Below, one piece after another: positions 5,221 to 36,948 of a stretch of DNA of 39,431 nt; position 1 is the first letter of the stretch; the number at the start of each line of letters is the position of its first letter. The stretch spans positions 1 to 39,431 of IMG/VR virus record IMGVR_UViG_3300036859_000180; one strand, 5' to 3'. The DNA comes from a virus. A program made the position numbers and the translations under genes. The notes below the pieces were generated by a model. It ran no database searches. It worked only from the letters and a program-made list of their open reading frames with translations, and was not told the origin of the DNA.

Positions 5221-5609
5221 TCGAGGTGGCCGAAGAAGTCCGACGTGGACAGGGGCCAGACGCCCTACCTTTCGGCGCGGCCACTGCATTGAACGCGGCT
5301 ACGCCCGATGAGCTCGCGCTGGAGACCCCGGAGATCCCGGTCATCTTCGCTCCCGGCACGGAGGACCCCGTACCGGATGACGACCGCGATTTGAATGAAG
5401 ACCTGCAGATCCTCGCCGCTGCCCCGGACCCGGAGTACCGCCGTTCCGCCGTGCCGAAGGAACGACCGGGCCGCGTACCGAAGTACGTGGTGCGCCACCT
5501 CGCACAGTTCCGCGCAGCGGCCACCGCGCCCGACGCCCCGCCCACACTGCGAGCCCTGTACAACGCGACGATCCGCCAGCTGGACGACGAACGCCGTAGG
5601 GGAGCCTGA
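5217..5609 (+). CDS. hypothetical virion-operon protein (130 aa)
   Basis: GTG 5217 overlaps the portal stop; GTG 5226, preceded by AGGTGA, is an equally good start. The N-terminal 60 residues are acidic and Pro/Ala-rich, and the last 50 are basic and helical (PKYVVRHLAQFRAAA, LYNATIRQLDDERRR). Its place between portal and giant protein suggests a small head or connector component. No family is recognised. Confidence 0.7.
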   Translation: MIEVAEEVRRGQGPDALPFGAATALNAATPDELALETPEIPVIFAPGTEDPVPDDDRDLNEDLQILAAAPDPEYRRSAVPKERPGRVPKYVVRHLAQFRAAATAPDAPPTLRALYNATIRQLDDERRRGA

Positions 5610-8600: not shown

Positions 8601-11600
8601 TCTTCAACGAGCAGATGCTCCGTATCGCCGCCTATGACTATGCCTCGGCGGTGTGGCACCCCCTGGACTGGTTCTACTCGACCAAGTTTGGTTCGGCTAA
8701 GGAGGGGGCCGGCTTCACTACGTTATTCCGTGAGCATCCCGGCTCTGCGCTGGGTGTGATGGTGGACCAAGTGCAGCGTCACCCCGGCTTCCAGCAGATA
8801 AAGGCTGGGCGGGAGATCGTGACGACGGCAGATGGACCGATGTTCTATCGCGCCTATGCCGACCGCCTGAACAAGTTCTACGCCTCGCCCTCTACGCACC
8901 ACTGGCATCTGGAGAACCTGGGTGACACCGACGCGACCCTGAACGCGATGCGTACCGGCAAGTACGCCGAGAACGGCGAGGACTGGCTACTCACCTATGC
9001 TGAGTACGGCATGGACCCGGCCGAAGCCGTGGGGCGCACGCAGCAGGAACTTGCGCAACTCATTGGGACGGGAGAAGGGGCGGACCTCGTTCGTACCGCC
9101 ATCAAGCGTGGCGAGGTGAATATCGATGGGAAGAACTACCGAGTAGGCACCTCGGACTTCGCGGAGAAGCTGCAAGACATGGCCGAGTCAGGCCGCTGGC
9201 AGCCTGGAACCCAATATATGAACCGATCCGCCGGTGACTATCTTCCGCTTCAACGAGAGACCGGGCTGACGCAGTTCAGGGATAGGTTGTTTAGCACCTT
9301 CTACTCCGCCCCAGACCTGGCCCTGTCGCGTAGCCCGATGTACCGCCAGATGGCGACGCGGGAGTTCAAGAACCTGCTCGGCCGTGGCTACAGCGCGGAC
9401 AAAGCGCGTAGGCTCGCGCAGGCACGGGCGGCGCGTGGCACCGCCGACATGATGTTCACCATCGGAGCCAAGACCTCCGGGGAGTACTTCCTCAAGAACA
9501 TCAACCCGTTCTTCCCGGCCTACCGCGAGCTCGCCACGACCTGGCTCAAGCGTGTGCCCCTGCGCATCGGGGAGGGCCACTGGGGCCTGGGTGCTGCCGC
9601 ACTCGTGCGCCGCGCCGACATCTGGACCGACTTCTTCAAGGATCTGGGTGTACTCCAGCAAGACGAGCAGGGTAAGTCCTTCGTGCCGCTGCCCTTCTTC
9701 GCCCCGCTGGTGCGATTGGTGACGGGCATCGATGCCGAGTTCAACGTGAAGACGGGGGTGGAGTCCTTCGCCGGCATCCTTCCCATGCCAATCGGATTCA
9801 CCGGCCGGGACGAGGAGGGCAATCTCCTGCCGTTGAGCGAGCGCGTGAAGGGAGTCTTCCCGACCCTGGGTGGCCCAGCAACTTTCGTGCTCGGGGCGCT
9901 GAACGACATCCTGCCCGACGAACCGCTCAAGATGGCCGAGGACTATTTAACCCTGTACGGAACGGATTCCTCGCTCGGGCCCCTCTCCGTGGACCGCTTC
10001 TCGGAGGCGTTCGGGTTCACGATGCCGTGGATGACGAACACCACGCAGCAGTACCACGAGGACACGCGCACCTGGGCTGTCATCGATGGCATGCGCCTCG
10101 CCTGGCCGAAGATGATCGAGGAGTTTGGTCCCCCACCCGACGCGACTACGGACCCGAAGGCTGCGGAAAAATGGGCAGAGGCATGGCTGAACCAGGGCGA
10201 GCACTATGCCACGACGACATACATCATGCGCGGCATTGCCGGAATGACCTTGCCGTTCTCCATCCAGATCGAGGACGAGGGCAAGCAAGACATCGCTGTG
10301 ATGTGGACGTTCCTGAACTCGCTACCGCAGGACGACGAGAGTGGCTTCAAGTCCGCCTACATTCGTTCGGTGCTGGCCTCGAATCCCAAGCTCCAGCCCT
10401 ACATGACCGGCAAGACCCTGGACACACGCCTCGTGGACGACCCCAGCGAATCGCAGGACCAGTTCATGCAGGCGGTGCGGAATGGGGACATCAAGATCCG
10501 CTCGGCCCAGGACTGGAGTGTCTTCGCCATCGGCTCCAACGTGATGTCTCACTTCCAGGCGCAGAAGCAGACCATCTACGACACCATGACCACGCCGGCC
10601 GAGTTCATGGTGGACTTCGAGGCACAACGAGCGCTGGACGAAATCGACCGCCAGCAGGATGTCTACCTCGACTCCACGACCGTCGTGGACAACTACCTCG
10701 ATGGGCAGACGCAATCCTTCAAGGACATGTGGGAGACATGGGAGGGCTACAACCGTCTGCGCGACGGCAAGACCACGCCACGCCTATCGGTGGAGGAACA
10801 GACCATCCTGGAGATCTCCCAACTCGAAGATGAGATCGCCAAGTATTTCTCCCGCAACCCGGAGACCTCCGACGACTACTACAAGATCAAGGACCTCATC
10901 TACGAGAAGCTGGACTACGAACCTACCAGCGCCCTCGGGCAAGCCAAGTCCTGGTACTTCGACAAGGTCCAGTCGGGCTACTACGACGCACTCGATAAGC
11001 TGTATAAGCCGGGGATGACGGCTGAGGACTTCCAGAAGATCCGCGACCATGCCAACGAGTACAACCACCGGTGGGTCAACGCGGACCACCCGGAGTGGGG
11101 CGAGTTCGCTCCGCCCGAGGAGTACGCCTTCCTCAAGCTGACGTCCGAGGACCAGCAGCGCGAGGTCGCGGGCTGGGCCGACCTTCCCGCCTACTTCCTC
11201 ACTGAGTTCCAGCGGGAGCAGGTGGGCTACTCCATCCCCGAGAATAAGCAGGGTGATGCCAGTGTCCTCGCCAACTACATCACGAGGAACGAGATCAAGT
11301 TCGATAGGTCCATCGACCGCTACAACATCTCGACGGCCTCGACCACTTACGAGATCAACCGTCGTGTATTTGACCAGGCATACGCCGACAAGGCCAAGGA
11401 GCTCGGCCTGACGGATTACTGGCGAGAAGCCAATGCCCCCGAGTATGAGCGACTCGGCAACGCGCTCAACCTGACCGAACAGACACAGACATGGGCGCTG
11501 GCGGAGAAGAAGGCCCGCGAACTCACGAATCGGATCGAGACCACCGAGTACGCTACCGGGCAGTTCTATTCTGCGGCTGGCTCCTCCGAAACAGCGGAGC

Positions 11601-11764
11601 GCAGCCGCGCTGCTATGTCCTCCGCCGTGCGGACATGGCGGAAGAACGACGCCGCGTTCGACCAGATCATCGGCAACCTGCAAATCTGGATGGGCGAAGA
11701 GGGTAAACCGCTCACCCAGGACGAACTCGTGGACATCCTCTTCTTCAACGTGTATCAGGCCTAG
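5609..11764 (+). CDS. giant virion protein, probable internal/ejection protein
   Basis: 2051 residues, the largest gene in the window, starting with ATG after GGGGAG and overlapping the previous stop. The N-terminal 60 residues are Pro/Lys-rich. Around 474-510 there is a hydrophobic Ala/Gly stretch with DPVNW, and around 970-1000 a segment VLGFRLFGALPARIFNEQM. Around 1290-1330 comes a conserved-looking YFLKNINPFFPAYREL with a following helix. These features recall large multi-domain proteins encoded after the portal in phages without a long tail, thought to be packed in the capsid and ejected with DNA. I see no HExxH, lysozyme, transglycosylase or polymerase motif that would prove an enzyme. 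Confidence 0.7.
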   Translation: MPQVLPEDVGQGGKGVAGRPDPAVQYQPPKKQNKGKPKPAPVEPAAVQRYDTPTTPRAQPPPGLDPTLADRIILSAERTKAIYRDSVSDSTIYHAPDTTYHSAAVQNDAVTTEITNEVTSFFAQVYGNEYMAQLIAAENLPEPMRSKSIAAMRYLAGLTPDVTAATVRVPFSSSPTATNPQELIEQALADPSAVGNMGREDQVQVRSVAAELVSTLEELPDQGIAGDIKRAIAIGTSGNYRLALTEDDIATLKTVVGQLQGLKLGGTTEEITYAPGRDVGIEQVRQLGEGVIVLDLDDAKADPARAFAVRTYLEQNFPELDIQYGREGIWGSLVDKISMPLDYVSAPFGAALRQLGEVQDRMRTPEQRQMLLERADRIEQALATNDRPAYDEVRKELLPLFQLAGGVDPNKEQAWQEEASRAVVELRDLGTEEVGFKEFADQVVENTRPRTIGFGFADSFTRATDTLPGDSWYQASYLTSGLLAAVVLDPVNWGPGLIGGLKAAKVVPKLSRAKVEAVIADSANELVEAGKYLTKEAAMDAARASLKGVITEDAWFPIVGRGWVKNSAYRAFAKFPEEIVTTRPFIRATKRLSRLKDAVGEGEFFSALNRYFGADVRRGGGSEVAKMLSKAKGEDDMGISMMRGVLGLDDPGVNLDRFAQELQEVTAQLDLGPAATTFDDYTDLVGRRAHLDDVIRGRDVQRPLQQIFTRKQLRQLERTAKASHGAYGRTLQGVIGFTEKFPGNLVRWTERSPQPNGEFGEASRSLFIGMDNMYKPTGAGEVIVLPHAARHPGALRGPGGIVIENAVEDSFNHLSNIGRTLGLGDRRINEIMGGWSGLIDNPSASRGYDFLKEAWTTMVDESPHLNAFGKQDLKQMWKGFTSDRSPGWLTVESLDGSLPSPVNYREVIDPATGAVSRVGKPAIEADQLTVWRTPGVDRLREYLTLTQSTMKQWSKAGWSKRSVAGLHHAVTTGWSAVNSFWRTSVLGFRLFGALPARIFNEQMLRIAAYDYASAVWHPLDWFYSTKFGSAKEGAGFTTLFREHPGSALGVMVDQVQRHPGFQQIKAGREIVTTADGPMFYRAYADRLNKFYASPSTHHWHLENLGDTDATLNAMRTGKYAENGEDWLLTYAEYGMDPAEAVGRTQQELAQLIGTGEGADLVRTAIKRGEVNIDGKNYRVGTSDFAEKLQDMAESGRWQPGTQYMNRSAGDYLPLQRETGLTQFRDRLFSTFYSAPDLALSRSPMYRQMATREFKNLLGRGYSADKARRLAQARAARGTADMMFTIGAKTSGEYFLKNINPFFPAYRELATTWLKRVPLRIGEGHWGLGAAALVRRADIWTDFFKDLGVLQQDEQGKSFVPLPFFAPLVRLVTGIDAEFNVKTGVESFAGILPMPIGFTGRDEEGNLLPLSERVKGVFPTLGGPATFVLGALNDILPDEPLKMAEDYLTLYGTDSSLGPLSVDRFSEAFGFTMPWMTNTTQQYHEDTRTWAVIDGMRLAWPKMIEEFGPPPDATTDPKAAEKWAEAWLNQGEHYATTTYIMRGIAGMTLPFSIQIEDEGKQDIAVMWTFLNSLPQDDESGFKSAYIRSVLASNPKLQPYMTGKTLDTRLVDDPSESQDQFMQAVRNGDIKIRSAQDWSVFAIGSNVMSHFQAQKQTIYDTMTTPAEFMVDFEAQRALDEIDRQQDVYLDSTTVVDNYLDGQTQSFKDMWETWEGYNRLRDGKTTPRLSVEEQTILEISQLEDEIAKYFSRNPETSDDYYKIKDLIYEKLDYEPTSALGQAKSWYFDKVQSGYYDALDKLYKPGMTAEDFQKIRDHANEYNHRWVNADHPEWGEFAPPEEYAFLKLTSEDQQREVAGWADLPAYFLTEFQREQVGYSIPENKQGDASVLANYITRNEIKFDRSIDRYNISTASTTYEINRRVFDQAYADKAKELGLTDYWREANAPEYERLGNALNLTEQTQTWALAEKKARELTNRIETTEYATGQFYSAAGSSETAERSRAAMSSAVRTWRKNDAAFDQIIGNLQIWMGEEGKPLTQDELVDILFFNVYQA

Positions 11765-14872: not shown

Positions 14873-15718
14873 TTGGCTTCCACTGGCGCAACAGCGCTAG
14901 CCGACTCCATCTTCGCTGAACTGGTGGAGTCGCGCATGGTTCAGGAGCTTCGTCCTGCCATGACGAGCCGTTCCTTCGTCCGCTTCGCTGCAAAGGGTCC
15001 GTCGCAGAACGCCTCGTTCCCCCTCTGGGGAGACCCTGGCGCTGCCGCGGCTCTGACGAACGACCTGTCCGAAGTCGCCTCGACCGCGCTGTCTGACACT
15101 CAGCAGACGGCGGTGGCCGCAGGGGTTGGCTTTCGCGTGGATGTCACGGACTTTGCCCGTGAGATCTGGGCTGGCGACAACCTCTATTCCGAGGTCGGTG
15201 CGATGGTTGGTCGTTCGGTTGCAGAGAAGTGGGAGACGGACCTCGCGGCTCTGATGGACGACTTCTCGAACGTCACCACCGCTGCTTCGACCCTGACCCC
15301 GACCGACCTTCTGGCCGCGGTCTCGGCGCTGGAGCAGCGAGACATCCCACGTCCTTACGTGGGCTATCTCGACCCGAAGCAGACCGGCGAGCTCCGGGCG
15401 GAGATTGCCACCACCTCTGCGTCCTACGAGATCGGACGCGACGGTGAACTGGTGAGTCCGTTCGGTGACTCCGGGTTCTTCGGTACGTACATGGGCCTTC
15501 CCATCTGGCAGACCTCGCTCGTTGTTACGACCTCTTCTCTGGTCGGCGGCGCGGTCTTCAATACTCAGGATGCCATCGGGGCATATGAGGTCATCGCGCA
15601 GCGTCTTGAGACGCAGCGTGACGCCTCGTTCCAGGCGCTTGAGTTCGTGGGAAGCGCATGGTACGGCCTCATCGAGATCAGTGACACTCGCGGTCAGACC
15701 CTCAAGTCGGCTGCGTGA
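14873..15718 (+). CDS. major capsid protein, HK97-like
   Basis: 281 residues, starting at TTG 14873 behind AAGGAG. The order is a helical N-arm (GATALADSIFAELVESRMVQ), FPLWGDPGAAAALTNDLSE, an A-domain-like middle with WETDLAALMDDFSNV and LTPTDLLAAVSALEQ, and a late strand-rich part (GAYEVIAQRLETQRDASFQ). This matches the short HK97-fold capsid proteins placed after a scaffold gene. It forms the shell; the protein from 15826 may decorate it. A GC hairpin follows the stop. Confidence 0.85.
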   Translation: MASTGATALADSIFAELVESRMVQELRPAMTSRSFVRFAAKGPSQNASFPLWGDPGAAAALTNDLSEVASTALSDTQQTAVAAGVGFRVDVTDFAREIWAGDNLYSEVGAMVGRSVAEKWETDLAALMDDFSNVTTAASTLTPTDLLAAVSALEQRDIPRPYVGYLDPKQTGELRAEIATTSASYEIGRDGELVSPFGDSGFFGTYMGLPIWQTSLVVTTSSLVGGAVFNTQDAIGAYEVIAQRLETQRDASFQALEFVGSAWYGLIEISDTRGQTLKSAA

Positions 15719-28031: not shown

Positions 28032-28660
28032 GCCCGATTCCCAAGACCCGACTACCGGACCTAGTTACCGACCCTCGCCGGGACGTGCTGTCGGACCAGC
28101 GAGCTCGCAACCAATACCTTGTGTCTCGGTATACCACTCAGCACACCACGCTGGCCGTCAATGAGACGCTGACGTTTACCACGACGGAGTTGCTGCGCAT
28201 CCGCGGGGCTCAGGTTCAGACTGTCTCGGGGGGGACTATCACCGTGCAGGTCCAGGCGAACGGGAGGGACCTATTCGACGACACGGTGCGACCTATCTCC
28301 GGTGCGGCACCCCAAGAGGTAACCCACCTGTACACGATCCCTGCGGGCAGCGCGGTCTCGACAATCGTGGAGGCTACCTCTGGTGTCCCTACGGGGACCG
28401 CGAACATCATCGTCAATGTGGAACCATTCGAGGTGCTTCCCAAGCCCGCCATCGCGCTCATAGGCCGGGATCGGCTGCGTCTATCGAGGCGTATCGAGGC
28501 CCAACAGATCGATGCCGTTAGGCGTTCAACCATCAGGGTTGCCGGGGACCAGACCGAGGCAGGTCAGGGACAGGTTGAACAGGTAAGGAATCGGGTGGGA
28601 CGCAATGCCCGCTCCCTTGTGTATCCCGGTCGGTATGCCTTCCGCGGCGGAAGGCGCTAA
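28028..28660 (+). CDS. hypothetical virion protein (210 aa)
   Basis: ATGA-type overlap with the nozzle gene (GTG 28028). Residues 45-140 form a beta sandwich (LTFTTTELLRIRGAQVQTV, NIIVNVEPFEVLP), and the C-terminal 60 residues are Arg-rich and helical. It is probably the last structural gene. Followed by 32 nt containing a variant of the GCCCTTGAC element. Confidence 0.65.
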   Translation: MSPIPKTRLPDLVTDPRRDVLSDQRARNQYLVSRYTTQHTTLAVNETLTFTTTELLRIRGAQVQTVSGGTITVQVQANGRDLFDDTVRPISGAAPQEVTHLYTIPAGSAVSTIVEATSGVPTGTANIIVNVEPFEVLPKPAIALIGRDRLRLSRRIEAQQIDAVRRSTIRVAGDQTEAGQGQVEQVRNRVGRNARSLVYPGRYAFRGGRR

Positions 28661-28663
28661 TCC

Positions 28664-28672
28664 GCCCTGGAC
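28664..28672 (+). promoter_or_regulatory. variant of the GCCCTTGAC element (GCCCTGGAC)
   Basis: One base differs. It lies in the short gap before ATG 28693, 20 nt from it. CCTTAG follows 11 nt later, at the same spacing as after copy 2 (1025). It marks the start of the lysis/accessory block. Confidence 0.4.
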
Positions 28673-28692
28673 GCAACCCCCATCCTTAGTCC

Positions 28693-29139
28693 ATGTCTGA
28701 GGAGTTCACGGAGCAACCCGACGGAAGGATGGTCGCTGGACCACCCACCGTAGCCAGCCTTGACCTGGGTAAGCCGGACACTGGTACCGGGCTTCGCCGC
28801 CTCCTGGTGATTGGTTTCACCATAACGCTAGGGATTGCGATGTTCATTGCCGGGCGCTCTGCTGCCCCTACTCCCGATCTGCCGTGGCAGGAAGTCGCGA
28901 TTAGCCGAGCCACTGAAGGCTGTCTCCCGGTCCTCCTCGTCGAATCCGTTGCGAGGGCGGAACAAGTGGATCAGCTGAACACGAACCTAGAACAGAAGGC
29001 GTCTCAGCTAAAGGATGGCATCGAGGACGCCACCAACATCGAGACCCACATCCTGCCGATGCCCCCCAATAGCGTCATATCCAAGACATACCCCGACGCG
29101 ACACACATCGGCATCCTCACGCTGGAAAGGTGCTTATGA
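28693..29139 (+). CDS. single-pass membrane protein (148 aa)
   Basis: A cytoplasmic N-tail of about 36 residues, one membrane helix (LLVIGFTITLGIAMFIAG), then about 90 residues outside with a helix (EQVDQLNTNLEQKASQLKDG) and two cysteines (77 and 147), which could pair. First gene of the lysis block, so a spanin- or antiholin-like role is possible but unproven. Confidence 0.7.
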   Translation: MSEEFTEQPDGRMVAGPPTVASLDLGKPDTGTGLRRLLVIGFTITLGIAMFIAGRSAAPTPDLPWQEVAISRATEGCLPVLLVESVARAEQVDQLNTNLEQKASQLKDGIEDATNIETHILPMPPNSVISKTYPDATHIGILTLERCL

Positions 29140-29343
29140 ATGCCGAACGGGCCGTTTGTGAGTGCGGGGGAAGCGAGCCTGATGGATGTGATGGCGAGGG
29201 TTGCAGCACTACATGCTGCCGTGAGGGAGATCAACAAGCATCTGACGTGGATAGACGACAAGCTCTACGAGCAGGCGAGACAAGATCGTGGACCTACCCC
29301 GATGTCTACGTTCAGTGGGACTCCTTCTGGAGAGACTGAATGA
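29140..29343 (+). CDS. hypothetical amphipathic-helix protein (67 aa)
   Basis: One long amphipathic helix (LMDVMARVAALHAAVREINK) and a Ser/Thr/Pro tail. The start is one base after the previous stop and the stop overlaps the endolysin start as ATGA. A competing frame from 29136 is Cys-rich but lacks helix logic. Probably a small partner of lysis proteins or a tail accessory. Confidence 0.6.
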   Translation: MPNGPFVSAGEASLMDVMARVAALHAAVREINKHLTWIDDKLYEQARQDRGPTPMSTFSGTPSGETE

Positions 29344-29795
29344 GCAACTGCTCAGATGGCGACTTCAAAACCCCATACGGAATGGTGACCGCTCGCTACC
29401 CCGGGCGCGTCAAGCCTCCACCTAACCTCCAGTCCTATCATCAGGACGGAGGCGGAACGGTGACGCTACAGGGTCCCGCGCTGCGCTCGTTCCGTGAGGC
29501 GGAGAAGGCAGCAACCCCACGGCGTATGCGTCGAAAGGGGAAGGTGCTTCCGATCCTCATCACGGGCGTTGGCTACCGTAGCTACACGCTCCAGGCGACG
29601 TACTACAAGTCGGACAGCTCTGGTCGCTATGCAAACCCGGACTGTTCGCTGCACTGCGAGGCGTTGGCCATCGACATCGACATGCGACAGGGCATCCTGC
29701 GACGCAAGCGCATCGCGTATCACTTGAAGAAGCGGGGCTGGCACTACGGCGTGTCGGGAGAATCCTGGCACACGTCGTTCAGGCTGTCGGGCTGA
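29340..29795 (+). CDS. endolysin, M15-type zinc peptidase (VanY/carboxypeptidase-like)
   Basis: 151 residues. The zinc site is SLHCEALAIDID (H105, D112), matching SxHxxGxAxD with Ala in place of Gly, followed by WHYG and the final SGESWHTSF with E141 and H144. It would cut a peptide bond in the peptidoglycan stem. No separate wall-binding domain or signal peptide is present, so a holin must let it out. Overlaps its neighbours by 4 nt and 1 nt. Confidence 0.85.
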   Translation: MSNCSDGDFKTPYGMVTARYPGRVKPPPNLQSYHQDGGGTVTLQGPALRSFREAEKAATPRRMRRKGKVLPILITGVGYRSYTLQATYYKSDSSGRYANPDCSLHCEALAIDIDMRQGILRRKRIAYHLKKRGWHYGVSGESWHTSFRLSG

Positions 29796-29974
29796 TGGAC
29801 TTCATCCTGCTCCTTGGTCTAGCCGCGCTGGCAGCCGTTCTGACGATCAAGGGCGTTCTCTGGGCCAAGAAACAGGACCGCAGCGGAGAACGTATCCACA
29901 GCAAGCGGGCACGCCAGCGCATCGACGCCATGTTCGAGGACATCATCAAGCCGCTGAGGAAGAACGATGAGTGA
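29795..29974 (+). CDS. N-terminal TM microprotein (59 aa)
   Basis: One membrane helix at residues 3-22 (FILLLGLAALAAVLTIKGVL), then a basic, charged helix to the end (KKQDRSGERIHSKRARQRI). Starts in TGATG overlap with the endolysin. Candidate holin partner or pinholin-like peptide, from location and topology only. Confidence 0.65.
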   Translation: MDFILLLGLAALAAVLTIKGVLWAKKQDRSGERIHSKRARQRIDAMFEDIIKPLRKNDE

Positions 29975-30140
29975 GTCCGACTGCCTCGAATGTGGGGCAC
30001 CCTGCGAGAGCCAGGGGGGCCATGAGATGAACGGCGTGGACTTCGATGGTAAGGAGGCGCTGTTCTGGGTGGACCGCATCCTCTGCGCTGCCGGCCACCG
30101 CTACTGCCTCGTGGATGAGAACCGGACGGTAAAGCTGTGA
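29967..30140 (+). CDS. zinc-ribbon microprotein (57 aa)
   Basis: CLECGAPC at 6-13, then CAAGHRYC at 40-47: two Cys clusters suggesting one zinc site. Overlaps the previous gene by 8 nt and the next by 4 nt. Role unknown. Confidence 0.65.
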   Translation: MSESDCLECGAPCESQGGHEMNGVDFDGKEALFWVDRILCAAGHRYCLVDENRTVKL

Positions 30141-30406
30141 CCGAACCCGAGAATGGTACGACTGTCCGGATAACCCTAAAGGATGTCTACTCGCTGGTTC
30201 AGGAAGTTCAGAAAGACCTGTCGAAGGGCCTTGGGCAGATGGAGTCTCACGTCGCACAGCCGAACCATGCAGGGACACAGGGGGAACTCACCGACCATGA
30301 ACAGCGCATCCGTAAGCTGGAGAAGGTTGCATGGGCCGCACTTGGGATCGCCGTAGTCGTGGAACCAGCACTCGCCATCTTCTTCTACATCGCGCAGAAT
30401 CAATGA
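30137..30406 (+). CDS. XhlA-like holin accessory protein
   Basis: 89 residues from GTG 30137. A charged helix (TLKDVYSLVQEVQKDLSKG) and coiled coil (TDHEQRIRKLEKV) precede one C-terminal membrane helix (AALGIAVVVEPALAIFFYI). This is the layout of XhlA-type lysis proteins, which work with a holin. Linked by GTGA and ATGA overlaps. Confidence 0.7.
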   Translation: MTEPENGTTVRITLKDVYSLVQEVQKDLSKGLGQMESHVAQPNHAGTQGELTDHEQRIRKLEKVAWAALGIAVVVEPALAIFFYIAQNQ

Positions 30407-30609
30407 CCGGGCCCGACACGCCCCCCGAAGTTCCTGAACCCGGTGACGTGGACTTCCCCGACTCAGTCCTACCCGAAGCCCACTCGGTCACGCTGGTCTG
30501 TCCCGAATGCGGTGAGCTCATCCGGATTCGAGATGTGCATGCGTACGTGCTGTCGAACCACCTCGCGGTGTGTGCCGAGCTGGCCTTGCTCAACGGAGCC
30601 GATGACTGA
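30403..30609 (+). CDS. zinc-finger protein (68 aa)
   Basis: An acidic, Pro-rich first 30 residues, then LVCPECGELIRIRDVHAYVL with a later H and C (C-x2-C...H...C), a probable zinc finger. It overlaps both neighbours by 1-4 nt. Function unknown. Confidence 0.65.
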   Translation: MTGPDTPPEVPEPGDVDFPDSVLPEAHSVTLVCPECGELIRIRDVHAYVLSNHLAVCAELALLNGADD

Positions 30610-30749
30610 TGAAGTATCGAACCATCCGATTCGCTTGGGCTTTCGGCCGGTTGTATGGCTGGCCCCTCCATCGCCGCATCATGTTTGCCCTAGGGTACCG
30701 AGTGCGGTTAGGCCAGCACACCACTGGGCGGGAACGAGCCGACCAATGA
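30609..30749 (+). CDS. small basic aromatic protein (46 aa)
   Basis: MKYRTIRFAWAFGRLYGWPL followed by HRRIMFALGYRVRLG: Arg- and aromatic-rich, could lie along a membrane or bind nucleic acid. TGATG start and ATGA stop overlaps support translation. No family is recognised. Confidence 0.55.
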   Translation: MKYRTIRFAWAFGRLYGWPLHRRIMFALGYRVRLGQHTTGRERADQ

Positions 30750-30949
30750 TTCCCTACGCGTTCCCCAGCCGCATGCCCACCTTCACCGATCCCCAGCGTT
30801 GGGGCCTGTGTCGGTGCTCTTGTCATGAGCAGGCCTATGAGGATGACCCGTTCAGTGGTCGTCCCGCTTCCGACGAACACGGACTATGCCAGTCCTGCGC
30901 CGATGAGGCGTATCTGCCATGGACGACCACGTTAGACCTGTTGACATGA
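30746..30949 (+). CDS. zinc-ribbon protein (67 aa)
   Basis: CRCSCHEQ and later CQSCADEAY give four to five Cys and one His for zinc. ATGA overlap with the gene before. Function unknown. Confidence 0.65.
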   Translation: MIPYAFPSRMPTFTDPQRWGLCRCSCHEQAYEDDPFSGRPASDEHGLCQSCADEAYLPWTTTLDLLT

Positions 30950-31287
30950 ACACGACGACGCCCATGAACACAACGACGACCACGTCGGTGCCGACAGAGA
31001 TGCATTCATTTTGGGATGGCTCGATGCAGGTTTGGCATTTCGGTCCCTTGTTGGGGTGTGGAATCTGCAATCCGCTTCGCGGATATTGTCGCGCTGTCGT
31101 TGTTGCGGATGTTCCCCATGAACAGAGGAGACCTCCCTCCGCCGCCCGGAGAGTTCATGACCTCCGAACAGATCGTGGCGACCATCCGCGACCACTGGGT
31201 AGAGAACCTGGGGGCCACCCCAGAAGAGGCCGGGCTACGCGCCGAACGAGACTTCATGCACATGCTCGCCACCGACTCCATCCGTGA
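30946..31287 (+). CDS. doubtful Cys-containing gene, 3' half probably not coding
   Basis: ATG 30946 overlaps the previous stop (ATGA). The first 50 residues look protein-like (Thr-rich, then WHFGPLLGCGICNPLRGYC). After about 31110 the frame is Arg/His/Pro-rich and lies over the true gene at 31157 in another frame. Either the gene ends in a shadow or a base change has removed an earlier stop. A hairpin ATCCGC-TTC-GCGGAT lies at 31070-31084. The region is less GC-rich than its surroundings. Confidence 0.35.
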   Translation: MNTTTPMNTTTTTSVPTEMHSFWDGSMQVWHFGPLLGCGICNPLRGYCRAVVVADVPHEQRRPPSAARRVHDLRTDRGDHPRPLGREPGGHPRRGRATRRTRLHAHARHRLHP

Positions 31288-31381
31288 ATGGGGATTTTCA
31301 GATACAGGCGAGACTTTGTATGAACCACACGCGACGCCCGTTGCTCGAGCCATCGTGTACGTCCTCGTACGAGACAAGTAA
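31157..31381 (+). CDS. hypothetical helical protein (74 aa)
   Basis: ATG 31157 with CGGAGAG 4 nt before; an upstream in-frame ATG at 31118 has no ribosome binding site. Helix TSEQIVATIRDHWVENLG and a second helix near the end (VARAIVYVLVRDK). No family is recognised. The holin gene starts 10 nt after its stop. Confidence 0.65.
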   Translation: MTSEQIVATIRDHWVENLGATPEEAGLRAERDFMHMLATDSIREWGFSDTGETLYEPHATPVARAIVYVLVRDK

Positions 31382-31391
31382 AGGAGAAGGC

Positions 31392-31586
31392 ATGCTGGAT
31401 AAGATCCTTTCGGCGTTGTCCGCAACCGTTCGAGATATCCTTCTGGCCGGCGTGGCTGCGGCCTCGGGCTATCTCCTTAGCCAGGAACTACCGAAGAACT
31501 GGGATGAAGCTAAGGCCCTCGTAGTCGCCGCCCTTTACATGGGTCTGCGTACCGCCGTCGCCTTCGCCGTCACCCTGCTCAAGTGA
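31392..31586 (+). CDS. holin, two-TM
   Basis: 64 residues behind AAAGGAGAAG. Two hydrophobic helices (ILLAGVAAASGYLLS and LVVAALYMGLRTAVAFAVTLL) joined by a short charged loop (QELPKNWDEAK): a standard small holin layout, close to the endolysin. It would form the membrane lesion for release of the M15 enzyme. Confidence 0.75.
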   Translation: MLDKILSALSATVRDILLAGVAAASGYLLSQELPKNWDEAKALVVAALYMGLRTAVAFAVTLLK

Positions 31587-31708
31587 ACGAGCCCGTTTGC
31601 CCCCGATGTGGGCGAGATATCGACCCCGACGATCTGCACACCGGCATCTGTTGGTCCTGTGGACTCATGGTGGATATGGATCGAGTCGTTGAGGAGACCT
31701 ATCGGTGA
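31583..31708 (+). CDS. zinc-ribbon microprotein (41 aa)
   Basis: GTG start in GTGA overlap with the holin. PVCPRCGRDI and GICWSCGLM give two CxxC pairs 17 residues apart, a minimal zinc ribbon. It ends in GTGA overlap with another one. Confidence 0.7.
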   Translation: MNEPVCPRCGRDIDPDDLHTGICWSCGLMVDMDRVVEETYR

Positions 31709-31848
31709 AGTACGTCTTCCGTTGCCGTACCTGCCCGGTATCCAAGGAAACGATGGTCCGCAGTCCTGCACCGAAGTGCGCCAGGTGCGGCAGGGACATG
31801 CCCAGGGACTACCAATCGGAGGCGGTGAATGTCCAGCATGTCCGGTGA
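31705..31848 (+). CDS. zinc-ribbon microprotein (47 aa)
   Basis: GTG start. FRCRTC and KCARCGRDM form two CxxC pairs, like the regulatory FmdB-type ribbons, though much shorter. It overlaps the next gene by 20 nt. Confidence 0.7.
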   Translation: MKYVFRCRTCPVSKETMVRSPAPKCARCGRDMPRDYQSEAVNVQHVR

Positions 31849-32155
31849 CTACGGGATCGAGGACATCATCGAGGAGTTGTCGGAACTCATCCGAGCGACC
31901 CTGTTAGACGGACAACGCAAGCGGGCACCGTCCTACTGGAAGAACGATCCCGGCCATGTGGACGCGCTGCATCGTCATCTCGTGCGCTACGACTTGGGCG
32001 AGCTCGTAGATGAGGACTCAAAGGCTCACCCACTGGCACACGCCGGAACCCGTGCGCTCATGCAGGCATATCAGGAGATACAGCCCGAAGGCGTGGAACT
32101 GGCTCTACGCCATGCGCAGGAGAGACGGGGGACACTTGCACGGCCCTGGTCCTAG
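31829..32155 (+). CDS. hypothetical protein (108 aa)
   Basis: ATG 31829 behind CGGAGGCGG. An acidic N-terminus (GIEDIIEELSELIRATLLDG) and a second helix rich in Ala (AHAGTRALMQAYQEI). It may modulate the protease encoded next, whose likely start lies 20 nt before this stop. No family is recognised. Confidence 0.65.
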   Translation: MSSMSGDYGIEDIIEELSELIRATLLDGQRKRAPSYWKNDPGHVDALHRHLVRYDLGELVDEDSKAHPLAHAGTRALMQAYQEIQPEGVELALRHAQERRGTLARPWS

Positions 32156-32660
32156 GACAACCACGAATCCCGCTGGTTGGCAGCCAACCTATCCCATGCC
32201 CATCACGGTGCGAGACACCTTCGTTTCAACTCTGGGGCCGAGGAAGCAGGACAAGTGGCGGCTCGCCCTTGAGGAGGCGTTGGGCATCTGGCGTGTCGCT
32301 GGCCTACATTTCGTCGTAGTAGAGGAATCGCCCGCGAAGTACGAGCCCTTTGATGTTTACGATGGGAAGCTGGCTGGCGTGGCCTTCTACGCGGTCCCCG
32401 ATTCCATCCGGCTCGTCCGTCAGCTGACGACGGAGCCAGACAAGGCTCTCTGGGTCGCTGATAAGGGAGGAGCAGCTTTCTTCCGCCCCGTCATGGTCTG
32501 GTGGAAATCCTTCTGGCGTCCGTCCCTGCGTGCCCACATCGCCCACGAGATTGGCCACTGCCTCGGGCAATGGCACAAGACCGGCGGCATTATGGGCGGG
32601 GGCTGGAAGGCGGACGAGCACGAACTGGATTGTTTGCGAACCTACTACCAGCAGGTTTAG
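32136..32660 (+). CDS. metzincin-type zinc metalloprotease
   Basis: 174 residues from TTG 32136 (AGGAGAGACGGGG upstream); ATG 32112 and ATG 32196 are alternatives. The C-terminal part has AHEIGHCLGQWH (H137, E138, H141, H147), the full HExxHxxGxxH zinc motif, followed by GGIMGGG with the Met-turn (Met153). The N-terminal part WRLALEEALGIWRVAGLHF is typical of matrixin-like catalytic domains. No signal peptide is seen, so it may be released by lysis or be carried in virions. Possible substrates are host surface or virion proteins. Confidence 0.8.
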   Translation: MHGPGPRTTTNPAGWQPTYPMPITVRDTFVSTLGPRKQDKWRLALEEALGIWRVAGLHFVVVEESPAKYEPFDVYDGKLAGVAFYAVPDSIRLVRQLTTEPDKALWVADKGGAAFFRPVMVWWKSFWRPSLRAHIAHEIGHCLGQWHKTGGIMGGGWKADEHELDCLRTYYQQV

Positions 32661-32690
32661 CCCTAGACGCCTGCACCACACTGCTTCCAG

Positions 32691-32861
32691 ATGCGATGTC
32701 CTGATAAGGCTTGCACCGGGAACCACAACAACCGGAAGCGAGCCAATCTCTGCCCACGCACACGCGCTGACGAACTAGCGCGTCATCGACGCTTCCGTAC
32801 CACGGCTGCCGGGATGCTCACGCAGGTGAGGTATGAGGCGAAGCGAAGGGGACTCGGGTGA
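32691..32861 (+). CDS. small Cys-containing basic protein (56 aa)
   Basis: MRCPDKACTGNHNNRKRANL and then C21: Cys 3, 8 and 21 with H12 could bind zinc. The C-terminal half is Arg-rich (RRFRTTAAGMLTQVRYEAKR). No good ribosome binding site at ATG 32691. It ends in GTGA overlap with the next gene. Probably nucleic-acid binding. Confidence 0.6.
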   Translation: MRCPDKACTGNHNNRKRANLCPRTRADELARHRRFRTTAAGMLTQVRYEAKRRGLG

Positions 32862-33058
32862 AGCGGTTAGGCGACATTGAACTCCAACGTGCCCAGCTAC
32901 TCAAGGCGCTACGAACGAACATCCGCTTGAAACACAGCCTGGCAGCAGACGAAGAGATCAACGAGAAGTTGCCAGCATTCGAGGCTGCGTTCGACAAGGC
33001 GGTTCAGTCCGGTAAGACGTACGAGCTAGACATAAGGTCGGTCCTGGGGGAGGACTAG
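32858..33058 (+). CDS. hypothetical helical protein (66 aa)
   Basis: GTG start in overlap with the previous stop. Nearly all helix (DIELQRAQLLKALRTNIRL, LPAFEAAFDKAVQSGK). The exonuclease starts right after it, so it may be a partner. No family is recognised. Confidence 0.6.
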   Translation: MKRLGDIELQRAQLLKALRTNIRLKHSLAADEEINEKLPAFEAAFDKAVQSGKTYELDIRSVLGED

Positions 33059-33061
33059 TTG

Positions 33062-33637
33062 GTGACCTTCAAGGTCACCCCACCCCGCACGCTCGATTTT
33101 GACATTGAGAACCGCCCACTGAACTACGCCGGCGAGGATTTCACCTTCTCCGAGATCACAGCCATCGCTTGGTGCTTCGTTCCCCCCCAGAATCGGGGGA
33201 AATTGCAGATAGATGCCCTGTGCCTGGGCGAGGTTCCCTTTCGCACCATGCTGCTAGGCTTCCTCGCTGCCTTCGTCCAAGCGGACATGGTGACCGGCCA
33301 TAACATCATCCGCCACGACCTACGCATCCTGAATGGGGCGTTGCTGGAGGAGGGACTTAGTCCACTGCCTCCCATCTTGGTCTCTGATACCTACGCGGAT
33401 CTCAAGAAGAAGGGTGGGGTATCGGGGTCACAGGCCAACCTCGCAGCCATGTTGGGGGTGAAGTCATCCAAGGTAGGGATGAGTCAGGCAGACTGGCGGG
33501 AAGCGAATAGGTTGGGGCCAGCCGGTATCGAAAAAACTCGGCGTCGCGTTATTGGCGACGTCAAGCAACATATCGCGTTGAGAAAAGAGTTACTCAGGCG
33601 TGAGTGGCTTCGGCCTCCGCGTCTGTGGTCGCCCTGA
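33062..33637 (+). CDS. DEDD-type 3'-5' exonuclease (RNase H-like fold)
   Basis: 191 residues. LDFDIE at 11-16 gives the D-x-E of motif I (D14, E16); GHNIIRHDLRIL has motif II D86; RRVIGDVKQH gives a late Asp (D166). VSDTYADLKK resembles the connecting strand of this fold. GTG 33062 is 8 nt after GGAGG; TTG 33059 is an alternative. It likely processes DNA ends in replication or recombination. Its last 44 nt overlap the leftward gene at 33594. Confidence 0.75.
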   Translation: MTFKVTPPRTLDFDIENRPLNYAGEDFTFSEITAIAWCFVPPQNRGKLQIDALCLGEVPFRTMLLGFLAAFVQADMVTGHNIIRHDLRILNGALLEEGLSPLPPILVSDTYADLKKKGGVSGSQANLAAMLGVKSSKVGMSQADWREANRLGPAGIEKTRRRVIGDVKQHIALRKELLRREWLRPPRLWSP

Positions 33638-33731
33638 CCGGCCAGAATGCATCGATTAGCTGGTCGATGATCCATGCGCTACCGACCAAGCCCCCGACCG
33701 TTCCCAAGAAGATCACTAGTCCATCGTTCAT
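33594..33731 (-). CDS. leftward TM microprotein (45 aa)
   Basis: Preceded by GGAGGAGG 4 nt from the ATG, the best ribosome binding site in the area, and by a full promoter. One membrane helix (LVIFLGTVGGLVGSAWIID) then a short acidic tail. It converges with the exonuclease gene and overlaps it. Next to a repressor-like gene on the same strand, it could be a superinfection-exclusion peptide, but this is inference. Confidence 0.8.
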   Translation of the reverse strand: MNDGLVIFLGTVGGLVGSAWIIDQLIDAFWPVRATTDAEAEATHA

Positions 33732-33760
33732 ATGTCCTCCTCCGCTATGTCCTGAGAATG

Positions 33761-33789
33761 AACCTATCCCTATTTCCCCCTCCGGTCAA
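33761..33789 (-). promoter_or_regulatory. leftward promoter of the TM microprotein
   Basis: Leftward TTGACC (33784-33789), 17-nt spacer, TAGGTT (33761-33766). Expected start about 33754, giving a 22-nt leader with GGAGGAGG. Confidence 0.75.
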
Positions 33790-33843
33790 TAGCCTGAGAT
33801 AGCCCTAGAACCGATTCTCCGGGCTCCTAAGCCATTTCGGGCT

Positions 33844-33857
33844 CGAACGCGTGTTCG
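33844..33857. promoter_or_regulatory. LexA/SOS box
   Basis: CGAACGCGTGTTCG, a perfect dyad CGAAC-N4-GTTCG that matches the Gram-positive and actinobacterial LexA consensus. It covers the -35 region of the rightward promoter-like TAGGAT at 33872. Host LexA bound here would block rightward transcription until DNA damage. Confidence 0.75.
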
Positions 33858-33877
33858 CTTGCCTGGCCCCCTAGGAT
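33849..33877 (+). promoter_or_regulatory. rightward promoter under the SOS box
   Basis: TAGGAT at 33872-33877 fits an actinobacterial -10; the -35 position (33849-33854) lies inside the SOS box and is poor. Start would be near 33884, 9 nt before ATG 33893. Confidence 0.4.
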
Positions 33878-33892
33878 TGCCGATGGGGAGGC

Positions 33893-34285
33893 ATGAGGGC
33901 GTTCAGGTCGCAGGGGGGAACACAGCACCACATCCCGGATGAGCATGGATTCGCCTGGTGTGGGCTTCCGCCGGGGAGCCTCAGTCTTGGAACCGCAGCG
34001 GCGTGGGCCGAAATCCCGGACCATCTGCGATGCCAAACGTGCCGCCGACTGGCCCCATTCCCGATCCACTTCGTTCGGAAGGTTCGGGGTGGCAAAGCCC
34101 TAGCAGAACGGGTGGTAGCTCATCCAAGACCACGCAGAGGCCCACGAACTGATGGTAGCTGGGCCTGGCGTGACCCGAAAACCACGTCGAGACAGTTTTG
34201 GGGTGAACTTGGAAAGGAAAGGCCCAGGCCACATCCGCCTGTGTCATACTCCGTCGAGCGGCAGCAGCCCGGAGCCACAACCTGA
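33893..34285 (+). CDS. zinc-finger protein converging on the repressor gene
   Basis: The first 60 residues carry a familiar small-phage zinc pattern: HIPDEHGFAWCGLPPG, then RCQTCRRL (H/C...C-x2-C). GGGGAGG precedes the ATG at very short spacing. Beyond residue 65 the frame is Arg/Pro-rich and lies antisense to the HTH gene, so the true protein may be short or the frame disturbed. Expressed from the SOS-box promoter, its transcript would run against the repressor mRNA. Confidence 0.55.
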   Translation: MRAFRSQGGTQHHIPDEHGFAWCGLPPGSLSLGTAAAWAEIPDHLRCQTCRRLAPFPIHFVRKVRGGKALAERVVAHPRPRRGPRTDGSWAWRDPKTTSRQFWGELGKERPRPHPPVSYSVERQQPGATT

Positions 34286-34334
34286 ACTCCTCGTCGATCT
34301 CTGATTTCGGCTTGGACTCCGCCCGCTGAGTCAT
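33981..34334 (-). CDS. XRE-type HTH transcription regulator, repressor candidate
   Basis: 117 residues, ATG 34334 behind GGGAGGG. The HTH lies at about 28-55: RSMTQADVAWAF, VHPKTVSTWFSG, then the wing-side helix SYHQFVGLCVVLDEL. The last 35 residues look like a shadow of the convergent zinc gene. Its promoter is overlapped by a perfect dyad, suggesting autoregulation. With the SOS box nearby it resembles the core of a lysogeny or dormancy switch, though no integrase is in the window. Confidence 0.8.
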   Translation of the reverse strand: MTQRAESKPKSEIDEEFRLWLRAAAARRSMTQADVAWAFPFQVHPKTVSTWFSGHARPSYHQFVGLCVVLDELPPVLLGLCHPEPSERSGSGMGPVGGTFGIADGPGFRPTPLRFQD

Positions 34335-34353
34335 CGATCTGCCCTCCCGGCTT

Positions 34354-34369
34354 TACGTTCTTTGACGTA
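34354..34369. promoter_or_regulatory. operator-like dyad TACGT-N6-ACGTA
   Basis: TACGTTCTTTGACGTA is a perfect 5-bp dyad, 5 bp past the -10 of the leftward repressor promoter, near its start site. It is well placed for repression. Confidence 0.55.
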
Positions 34370-34373
34370 CGTA

Positions 34374-34402
34374 TTCCTACCCCATCTCCCATTCCCTGTC
34401 AA
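34374..34402 (-). promoter_or_regulatory. leftward promoter of the HTH regulator
   Basis: TTGACA (34397-34402, leftward) is a perfect -35, 17-nt spacer, then TAGGAA (34374-34379). Leader of about 30 nt. Confidence 0.75.
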
Positions 34403-34417
34403 ATCTAATCTTTGACA
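34397..34417. promoter_or_regulatory. operator-like dyad TGTCAAA-N7-TTTGACA
   Basis: Perfect 7-bp arms, 21 bp in total, covering the -35 of the repressor promoter. The other arm is itself a rightward TTGACA without a good -10 (CACCCT after 16 nt). Confidence 0.7.
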
Positions 34418-34487
34418 CACCCTTACCCTGCAACACCCTACGTGCTCATCCAGTGCTTCGCCGCTACATCTTGTGGAGCCAGAAGTT

Positions 34488-34529
34488 CGGATAATCTGGG
34501 ATGGCGACTTGACACCACCGGATTCTGGG
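34488..34529 (+). repeat. direct repeat CGGAT(AA)TCTGGG around the early promoter
   Basis: CGGATAATCTGGG (34488-34500) and CGGATTCTGGG (34519-34529) start 31 bp apart, about three helical turns, on either side of the -35 box. A possible activator or repressor pair of sites. Confidence 0.5.
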
Positions 34530-34537
34530 TGCATGAT
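34509..34537 (+). promoter_or_regulatory. rightward early promoter
   Basis: TTGACA (34509-34514), 17-nt spacer, CATGAT (34532-34537). Start about 34544, which makes the structured segment up to 34785 an RNA leader. Confidence 0.65.
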
Positions 34538-34544
34538 CCGCGGG

Positions 34545-34785
34545 ATGGATGCCGGGAATGTACGTGATGAGAATCCTCCGCCCGGAACTACCGCGGGCGG
34601 ATTTGACCGTGTGGCGGGGGTCGAGGGAATGGCCACCCTCCCGGCGTCCATTCCTCCCCCCGCCCACGAAATTCAGGGGGGTGGCGAAACCGATGTGGCC
34701 CCGGGTGCGGGCGTTGCGGGGATAACCACTAGGCAGGCGTCCGGGATGGACTCGCATCGTTCCCGGCCTAGTCGCCCCCCTGAAT
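34545..34785 (+). ncRNA. multi-hairpin leader RNA before the early genes
   Basis: Stem A: TCCGCCCG (34577-34584) with CGGGCGGA (34594-34601). Stem B: GTGG-CGGGGG (34611-34620) and GGAATGG (34626-34632) with CCATTCC (34648-34654), CCCCCG and CCAC (to 34667). Stem C: ATTCAGGGGGG (34671-34681) with CCCCCCTGAAT (34775-34785), 11 perfect pairs. Inside C, ACTAGG (34728-34733) and CCGGGA (34741-34746) pair with TCCCGG and CCTAGT (34761-34772). The last hairpin contains ATG 34746. No known RNA family is recognised; replication-origin DNA is an alternative. Confidence 0.6.
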
Positions 34786-35165
34786 ACGATTCCCTTCCAT
34801 GGGCCTGCGTTACCTGCGGCCGTTGGGTGAACCCGCTGGAACGGATTCATACAGACATCGGGCTCTTTCACGATGCCGTCGAGTGCTTGACGGGTGAGCA
34901 GTACGAGGCCCTGGTAGCTCGGTACGCCTGTCGGTGTGACGAGGAAGACAAACGCGCCCACGCCACGGCCGAGTTCCTGACTGGCCTAGCTGAGCAGATG
35001 TGGGGAGACACCCCCCGTGTGACCCCCGAGGAGAAACGAGAGGCCCACCGGATTGCGGTGGCCCTTGAACCAGGCGAATACGACTCCGACGATCTAGACC
35101 GGATTCAAGCCGCTTATGAGCAGCGGATGCGGGAGTTCGAGAAAACCTGGGAGAGCTACCCATGA
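34746..35165 (+). CDS. zinc-containing early protein
   Basis: 139 residues from ATG 34746. WACVTCGRWV (CxxC), a later C, and YACRC form a probable zinc site, followed by a long charged helix (RIQAAYEQRMREFEKTW). The frame stays open back to 34473, but the early promoter and hairpins there make that part leader rather than coding; ATG 34629 is another candidate start. The start codon lies in a stem, so translation may be controlled. Stop overlaps the next gene. Confidence 0.6.
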   Translation: MDSHRSRPSRPPEYDSLPWACVTCGRWVNPLERIHTDIGLFHDAVECLTGEQYEALVARYACRCDEEDKRAHATAEFLTGLAEQMWGDTPRVTPEEKREAHRIAVALEPGEYDSDDLDRIQAAYEQRMREFEKTWESYP

Positions 35166-35260
35166 ACATCTTCCTGGTGCTGTTCGTCTTCTTTGTAGGT
35201 GGGTTCCTGGGGATGTTGATTATGGCGTTGGCGGCGATGGCTGATGAGGACCGGCGATGA
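35162..35260 (+). CDS. single-TM microprotein (32 aa)
   Basis: MNIFLVLFVFFVGGFLGMLI plus a short acidic end. ATGA overlaps at both ends. Same plan as the peptides at 276 and 1483. Function unknown. Confidence 0.65.
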   Translation: MNIFLVLFVFFVGGFLGMLIMALAAMADEDRR

Positions 35261-35547
35261 GCGACCACATGCCGGGACCGTGGACTTATCAGGTTCTCAA
35301 CCGTGACGATAGGACAAGCTTCATGGTCTCGATAGTGGAAGGCGATCCAGCGAAGTGGCAGACCATAGCGGAGTGCAGCTTCGACGCACCGAGGGCCAAC
35401 GCCGGCCTCATCGCGGCTGCCCCGGACCTATTGGCGGCCCTGGAACGGATTGATGAGCACGTCACGGCGTTCCCGAAGCAAGAGCTAGAGGCCGCTTGCG
35501 TGAACACGGTTCGTGCCGCCATCGCCAAGGCCCGGGGGGACCGATGA
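35257..35547 (+). CDS. conserved small phage protein, NAGLIAAAPDLLAAL type
   Basis: 96 residues. The middle segment ANAGLIAAAPDLLAALE is a signature found in very many phage early regions; the N-half is a small beta domain (WTYQVLNRDDRTSFMVSIV). The role is unknown. Linked by ATGA overlaps. Confidence 0.75.
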   Translation: MSDHMPGPWTYQVLNRDDRTSFMVSIVEGDPAKWQTIAECSFDAPRANAGLIAAAPDLLAALERIDEHVTAFPKQELEAACVNTVRAAIAKARGDR

Positions 35548-35897
35548 GGTCCGACCAGATCCTTCACCGAACCATCCAGCGAGTTGATGAGACCGTCTTA
35601 CTTGAGCAGGGACGCAAGGTGGAGCGAGGACTGTGGGACGAGAACACCCGCAACTCGATGCTGACCGACGAGCAGCGGTTGTGCAGCCTACTCACAGCGA
35701 GGGTGGCAGCAGGATGCACCTTCGCCACCTGGAACGAGACCAAGGACAGGCTGGCAGCGATGAAGGTACGGGAGGGGCATTACACACCCGGAGGCCATGA
35801 CATCGATTGCCCTTGCGATCACTGCGAACGCGGGTGGAAGCGGTTGATGTATGCGGTTGGTGTGCTTCCCCGGCGCCATCAGGCGATGAACCGATGA
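35544..35897 (+). CDS. hypothetical protein with CPCDHC motif
   Basis: 117 residues from ATG 35544. A helical N-half (ILHRTIQRVDETVLLEQGRK) and DIDCPCDHCERGW near 95-107 for zinc binding. Overlaps its neighbours by 4 nt. Function unknown. Confidence 0.7.
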   Translation: MRSDQILHRTIQRVDETVLLEQGRKVERGLWDENTRNSMLTDEQRLCSLLTARVAAGCTFATWNETKDRLAAMKVREGHYTPGGHDIDCPCDHCERGWKRLMYAVGVLPRRHQAMNR

Positions 35898-36187
35898 GCG
35901 AGCATGGTCGCCCGGGGACTTATACGAACAACGGTTGCCGGTGTGGAGCCTGCCGCGCCGCGTGGACAGCCGCCTGCAAAGAGTCGCGCGTGGCTAGGGC
36001 TAGCGCCCTGGCGGGGGGGATACGCCCAAGGGCTCGACGTGGTCCCGCGCCCAAGGACTCTCGACTGGTGCCGCACGGGGTAGAGAGCACCTACTTCAAC
36101 TGGTCCTGTCGGTGTGATGCCTGCAAGGCAGAGCACGCATGGCGCGAGCGGGATCGAGCCCAGGCGCGGAAGGCGCGAGCATCATGA
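35894..36187 (+). CDS. double zinc-knuckle protein
   Basis: 97 residues with two copies of an HG...Y...GCRC-x2-C unit: HGRPGTYTNNGCRCGACRAA and HGVESTYFNWSCRCDACKAE, 56 residues apart. Single-unit forms are common small phage proteins; a tandem form suggests fusion or duplication. Basic linker and tail. Probably binds nucleic acid. Confidence 0.75.
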   Translation: MSEHGRPGTYTNNGCRCGACRAAWTAACKESRVARASALAGGIRPRARRGPAPKDSRLVPHGVESTYFNWSCRCDACKAEHAWRERDRAQARKARAS

Positions 36188-36948
36188 CTCTCAAGACCGT
36201 CACCTGGGTCTCAGACATTGGTGAGCCGACTGATCGCCAAGTGCGCTATATCAACGTGGCCTTCCAAGATAAGGACACGGCATACATCGGGAAGAAGAAC
36301 ATCGACACTGCCGTCGAAGTCCACGGCCTGTTGACTGAGGCCCTGAACAAGCCCATTGAGTTCACCCTTGAGGAATCGGGGACGAACAAGCACGGCGGGA
36401 CCAAGTTCAAGATAAAGGCTTTTGGCGAGTACCAGCCAGCGCCATTCGTTCCGGGGGCGGCGGGTAGTTCTGCCACTTCTCCCCGCCGCTCCCCGGAGCA
36501 TGACCAGTTCATCCAGGAAAGGATGGACCGAAGGACCGCATTGATGCAGGCGGTCACTGTCTTCGGCTCGGCCAGCGATATGTTCAGCGGTTTAGTGCAG
36601 CGATACGCTGACGAGGCATACGAATGGCTTCGCAAGACTTCGGAGTCCACATCAAGCGAACAGCAATCCCCCCTTCCACAAGCAGGTGTGGACTCCGAAT
36701 CAACGTCCCCGGCCGCAGGACCAGTTTCGACTACGAGGGATCGGGTCGAGGCAGGCGTAGCGACCAAGGGAACCAGCGACCAGGATTCTGGCAACGCACC
36801 CGCCGGGGATGACCGTGGGGGGCAGTCCGCTTATGGGGAAGGAGTGGGCTGCCCCCCGCATGACTTGGATTTGGATATTGCCCCGAAGGCGCAGCGGTTC
36901 CCCTGTAGGCGTTGTGGTTTCTGGATCAAACCAACGGTCCCAGCATGA
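36184..36948 (+). CDS. possible OB-fold protein with C-terminal zinc site
   Basis: 254 residues from ATG 36184. Residues 1-90 are beta-rich and OB-like (DRQVRYINVAFQDKDTAYI, IEFTLEESGTNKHGGTKFK). A helical part near 105-155 is followed by a disordered Ser/Glu/Gly-rich linker, and CPPHD...PCRRCGFWIK at the end. This plan would suit a single-strand-binding or replication accessory protein; that is inference. Confidence 0.6.
   Translation: MTLKTVTWVSDIGEPTDRQVRYINVAFQDKDTAYIGKKNIDTAVEVHGLLTEALNKPIEFTLEESGTNKHGGTKFKIKAFGEYQPAPFVPGAAGSSATSPRRSPEHDQFIQERMDRRTALMQAVTVFGSASDMFSGLVQRYADEAYEWLRKTSESTSSEQQSPLPQAGVDSESTSPAAGPVSTTRDRVEAGVATKGTSDQDSGNAPAGDDRGGQSAYGEGVGCPPHDLDLDIAPKAQRFPCRRCGFWIKPTVPA

Follow-up and report, generated by a model that had tools for sequence, protein, structure and literature searches.

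A LexA-type box upstream of a zinc-finger-like gene that overlaps a likely repressor gene antisense in an uncultured phage

The locus and its genomic context

The sequence analyzed here, referred to throughout as the window, is the 39,431-base IMG/VR virus record IMGVR_UViG_3300036859_000180 (G000 in our numbering), with a G+C content of 61.5% over the whole record. The locus of interest begins with an exonuclease-like gene (33059-33637), followed by a 255-bp stretch containing an SOS (LexA-type) box at 33843-33858, and then by two genes, Z and H, which run tail to tail on opposite strands and share 305 bp (33981-34285). Z (33893-34285, + strand) encodes a 130-aa protein with a zinc-finger-like H-x9-WCG ... 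C-x2-C pattern, while H (33981-34334, - strand) encodes a 117-aa helix-turn-helix (HTH) protein resembling the XRE and HTH_31 families, which is a likely phage repressor.

No tRNA genes were found in the 39,431-base window, and a DNA-level search of phage records retrieved nothing matching it. Scans of the viral_contigs and genome_contigs collections returned only two relatives of the locus, L002 (record G001, 32.6 kb) and L013 (record G002), with all remaining matches being spurious. L002, from viral_contigs, is the sole close relative, and the L013 gene pair was located by a degenerate-pattern scan. The terminase, portal, and capsid region of G001 is of a different kind from that of the window, so that the regulatory arm is common to phages with unlike structural modules. 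When window positions 28660-36716 are compared with L002, the right arm shows 68-94% DNA identity, the structural genes are of another kind, and the mosaic boundary is sharp. Two further genes of the window may be recorded here. A 2051-aa protein, to which no role was assigned, is encoded directly after the portal-like gene (5609-11764, + strand), and a 216-aa ORF (32010-32660, + strand) contains HEIGHCLGQWH, a zinc metalloprotease-like motif (HExxHxxGxxH); the latter has a related ORF in L002 and retrieved no match in PHROG.

The best terminase matches, at about 26% identity, are mainly to actinophages, with Streptomyces phages nearest, and the major capsid protein (14873-15718, + strand) is nearest to those of Pelagibacter phages at about 30% identity. 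The phage host is possibly an actinobacterium. No tyrosine integrase (PF00589) was found in the window or in G001, and no serine recombinase (PF00239) or ParA (PF13614) was found in any of the three records, all of which may be fragments. As a result, induction from lysogeny is an assumption in what follows.

The LexA-type box and the leader upstream of Z

The box, TCGAACGCGTGTTCGC, contains a dyad at 33844-33857, CGAACGCGTGTTCG, made of two perfect half-sites around an RNRY center. The LexA consensus of Streptomyces venezuelae is tCGAAC-N4-GNNCGa (PMC9380542), and the only mismatch of TCGAACGCGTGTTCGC to it is the last flanking base. The exact pattern CGAACN4GTTCG occurs once in the 39,431-base record, namely as CGAACGCGTGTTCG; under a first-order Markov model 0.057 occurrences would be expected per record, and only 0.0076 of the stricter pattern CGAACRNRYGTTCG. 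A second core match, GAACCGAGGTTC at position 37785, was set aside, being located inside an ORF and having no RNRY center.

For a graded comparison, a 14-position LexA matrix was built from 15 published S. venezuelae sites (PMC9380542, Table 1), with the ruvC and alkB rows left out as poor matches. The box scores 17.3 bits on this matrix and ranks first among the 78,836 positions of the window, 3.6 bits above the runner-up (13.7 bits). Sites as good as this are expected by chance 0.05 times per record and 0.0003 times within the 255 bp that separate the exonuclease-like gene from Z. The matrix represents Streptomyces sites, and it is from the site itself that we take the relevant LexA to be of the CGAAC-N4-GTTCG type. 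The initial annotation had described a perfect LexA-type dyad at these positions, and it is there as described, with the addition that it is also the top matrix site of the record. Upstream LexA boxes in S. venezuelae lie between -14 and -199 from the start codon (PMC9380542), a range that includes both the box in the window (-50 from the Z start codon) and its counterpart in L002 (-93). Taken together, we consider it likely that TCGAACGCGTGTTCGC would serve as a LexA operator and that Z would be under LexA control.

A search for the same box in relatives, which the initial annotation had called for, was borne out in L002 and not clearly in L013. Record G001 contains exactly one GAACN4GTTC, located upstream of Z just after the exonuclease gene. 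This site, TCGAACACCTGTTCTA (L002 6535-6520), scores 18.9 bits and ranks first in G001, and simulated sequence totaling 1.5 Mb contained no site as good. From the exonuclease gene to Z, the leader measures 255 bp in the window and 99 bp in L002, and the two are only partly alignable and rearranged. With the two boxes at different places in this rearranged leader, plain sequence identity does not explain their conservation. In one alignment, TAGAACCGATTCTCCG in the window (33806-33821; 6/8 match) falls near the position of the L002 box as a possible decayed box, which would fit a replacement of the site; this is no more than suggestive. L013 keeps both H and Z and has only weak sites before Z, the best of them at 11.0 bits (rank 8 in G002) and 9.4 bits (rank 15). 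The 9.4-bit site, CCGAACACCAGACC, lies 27 nt before a TAGGCT, an offset identical to that in the window; we nevertheless do not count it as a conserved box, as sites of that strength are frequent.

The initial annotation had also placed a promoter at the -10-like TAGGAT (33872-33877, + strand), covered by the box. The spacing does fit, as a spacer of 15-18 bp from TAGGAT puts the -35 hexamer within the box. However, no TTGACA-like hexamer was found at the -35 position in the box region, a consensus promoter scan made no call at TAGGAT, and the element is not conserved in L002, with the L013 Z gene being preceded by the TAGGCT mentioned above. With neither a -35 consensus nor a scan call, the TAGGAT promoter is only plausible. 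Downstream of it lies the ribosome-binding site of Z, GGGGAGG (33885-33891, + strand), with similar G-rich sites before Z in both L002 and L013. In the window, the part of the leader that precedes the box also contains an ORF of 45 aa with a hydrophobic segment (MNDGLVIFLGTVGGLVGSAWIIDQLIDAFW...; 33594-33731, - strand). This ORF has the ribosome-binding site GGAGGAGG, together with a promoter-like element, TTGACC-17-TAGGTT, at 33761-33789, and the short leader of L002 has no room for it.

Genes H and Z and their antisense overlap

H matched the PHROG category "transcriptional repressor" (E 3e-4), and Pfam HTH_31 was matched at 3.9e-8 within the H family. The protein is 94% identical in L002. 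Only the HTH match was obtained, with no peptidase domain recognized in the profile matches. Lambda CI is a self-cleaving repressor; H, having no recognized peptidase domain, should not cleave itself in that way and would need an outside trigger. The likely H promoter is TTGACA-17-TAGGAA (34374-34402, - strand), and the same element is present in L002. It is accompanied by a dyad, TGTCAAA-N7-TTTGACA (34397-34417; TGTCAAA-N8-TTTGAC in L002), which is a candidate for either an H operator or paired -35 elements. Divergent from H is a likely rightward promoter, TTGACA-17-CATGAT (34509-34537, + strand), which is also conserved in L002. As far as can be judged from these predicted elements, the arrangement is that of a repressor gene flanking an operon that runs the other way, and we infer that H represses the rightward genes. 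The first rightward ATG (34545) comes 7 nt after the -10 element CATGAT; this spacing, found in both the window and L002, suggests a leaderless mRNA. The first rightward gene begins with M(D/F)AGNVR in both the window (34545, + strand) and L013 (2061, + strand), the two genes being otherwise unlike.

The initial annotation had mentioned a zinc-finger product, and the support for its gene is clear. Outside the overlap, all nine substitutions between Z of the window and Z of L002 are synonymous (P about 1e-6), and L013 carries a homolog that is 41% identical. Judged by this substitution pattern, Z is a real gene under protein-level selection. Searches of PHROGs, Pfam, PDB sequences, and phage records with Z retrieved nothing, known antirepressors included, and its predicted structure is too poor to be of use (pLDDT 53).

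Z and H together form the antisense arrangement that the initial annotation had proposed: the geometry is confirmed, in that Z overlaps the leftward HTH gene by 305 bp, and the rightward transcript itself is predicted. Within the overlap, the changes between the window and L002 are mostly silent in Z at 34002-34102 and mostly silent in H at 34137-34284, which indicates that in each gene the constraint falls mainly on the N-terminal half. In L013, H, like Z, is 41% identical to that of the window, and the register is the same, with the CHPEP of H facing Z residues 63-68 in L013 as in the window. The keeping of this register at such a level of identity indicates that the antisense overlap is old. 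The open Z frame over H was not accepted as evidence in itself, since 16-34% of recodings of the opposite gene keep the frame open by chance. We found no described example of a geometry like that of H and Z in the open-access literature, which does not establish that none exists. What would be unusual about this locus is that a putatively LexA-controlled gene has a conserved antisense overlap with a likely repressor gene.

Discussion

Of the proposed switch, what was observed is that the site exists and is rare, that L002 also has it before Z, and that both overlapping genes are real. From these, the following sequence of events may be proposed. While LexA is intact, it would occupy the box and Z would be off, and H, expressed leftward from its own promoter, would keep the divergent rightward genes off. 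Upon DNA damage, the host would cleave LexA, and the promoter, if damage-inducible as we propose, would transcribe Z head-on into H. The Z protein, a candidate SOS-induced antirepressor, would most likely inactivate the apparently non-cleavable H, and the antisense, convergent Z transcript would also lower H synthesis. Binding of LexA, the role of H as repressor, and opposition to H by Z or its transcript are each predictions of this proposal. We give the full switch, in which LexA represses Z and damage releases Z to counteract H with antisense reinforcement, about an even chance of being correct. The initial annotation had described an induction switch without an obvious separate antirepressor; this was probably the wrong emphasis, as the best candidate for an antirepressor is the very gene that follows the box.

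A different role for Z is the alternative that survives best. Z could be SOS-regulated through the box and act elsewhere, for example on a host protein or on late gene expression, with the overlap reflecting genome compaction and any antisense effect being incidental. Z belongs to no recognizable family and has no link to an antirepressor, and with so many recodings staying open, a long overlap would be cheap in this genome, both of which are in line with such a role. Against this, the register of the overlap is kept at 41% identity even with different upstream neighbors, a depth of conservation that points to joint action of H and Z. We regard this alternative as somewhat unlikely.

We consider it quite improbable that the dyad has nothing to do with LexA and instead arose by chance as a palindrome, works as a terminator or RNA hairpin for the exonuclease gene upstream, or serves H as an operator. 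In favor of this view, about 0.05 such sites are expected per record, the search that first noticed the box took in the whole window, and the LexA of the host may recognize another motif. As a terminator or RNA hairpin, however, the dyad fails: its predicted fold in the window is no better than that of shuffled sequences (z -0.65, compared with z -1.63 for L002), and it is not followed by a T-run. An operator of H is unlikely, with no GAACN4GTTC near H or the rightward promoters, and chance alone would have to account for the top site of G001 sitting in the same intergenic stretch. Last, an effect of the transcript alone, with a LexA-controlled RNA lowering H by pairing or polymerase collision and the Z protein not being the effector, has the precedent of lambda OOP (PMC5869508) and a unit spanning most of the H coding sequence including the HTH part, but is very improbable given that Z is selected as a protein, retains its ribosome-binding site, and is recognizable in L013.

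Returning to the switch in which the Z protein counteracts H, the selection on Z as a protein means that RNA alone would not be the whole story. A stronger version would have a single LexA-controlled unit opposing the repressor twice and inseparably, by RNA antisense to most of the repressor's coding region and by a zinc-finger antirepressor of an undescribed family, encoded across from the very same codons. This version is tentative and, in our estimation, unlikely; if true, repressor and antirepressor would be tied to each other by the overlap, such that neither could be lost or exchanged singly.

To our knowledge, the sensing of DNA damage by phages whose repressors are small and non-cleavable is understood in only a few systems, mostly enterobacterial. 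If the proposed switch is correct, an uncultured and possibly actinobacterial phage couples its switch to host LexA through a gene that physically overlaps its target. It would also mean that phages differing in their structural genes share a compact repressor/antirepressor module, and it would provide a rare example of conserved proteins encoded on opposite strands of the same 300 bp.

The closest functional model is provided by the LexA-controlled antirepressors of temperate phages, i.e., Tum of phage 186, AntC of N15, and GfoA/GftA of the Gifsy phages (PMC3121763). In both cases a host LexA operator, predicted in ours, stands over a small phage gene whose product inactivates, or in ours may inactivate, the phage repressor; Z lies under such a predicted operator, and its presumed cognate repressor has no recognized self-cleaving domain. 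Z has no sequence relation that we could find to Tum, AntC, or GfoA, and its action as an antirepressor is a candidate one. In addition, Z is antisense to most of the repressor gene, whereas no such overlap is described for Tum, AntC, or GfoA in the passages drawn on here.

The antisense geometry has its own parallel in the pO promoter and OOP RNA of lambda, where a LexA site lies in the promoter region of a transcript that is antisense to cII and favors lysis (PMC5869508). As there, a promoter with a LexA site would here be antisense to a phage regulator gene, given the 305-bp overlap geometry and a predicted transcript. In contrast, OOP is a small RNA whose target is the activator gene cII, while the Z transcript would be the mRNA of a conserved protein that opposes a likely repressor; with Z under protein-level selection, it is not a small RNA of the OOP type. 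In the Bacillus phage GIL01, LexA together with gp7 directly represses the phage's own lysogenic promoter (PMC4551915). The present locus resembles GIL01 in the predicted use of a host LexA box in a phage regulatory region and differs from it in having a separate HTH gene, H, and a single box before Z. Lastly, LexA-bound phage genes have been reported in an actinobacterium, namely tail-fiber and hypothetical genes with the same type of box and strong mitomycin C induction (PMC9380542); unlike Z, they are not described as overlapping a repressor gene. By analogy, the proposed switch, homologous to none of these systems and involving no new principle, looks like one that would work in the manner of the SOS-controlled antirepressors Tum, AntC, and GfoA and of lambda OOP.
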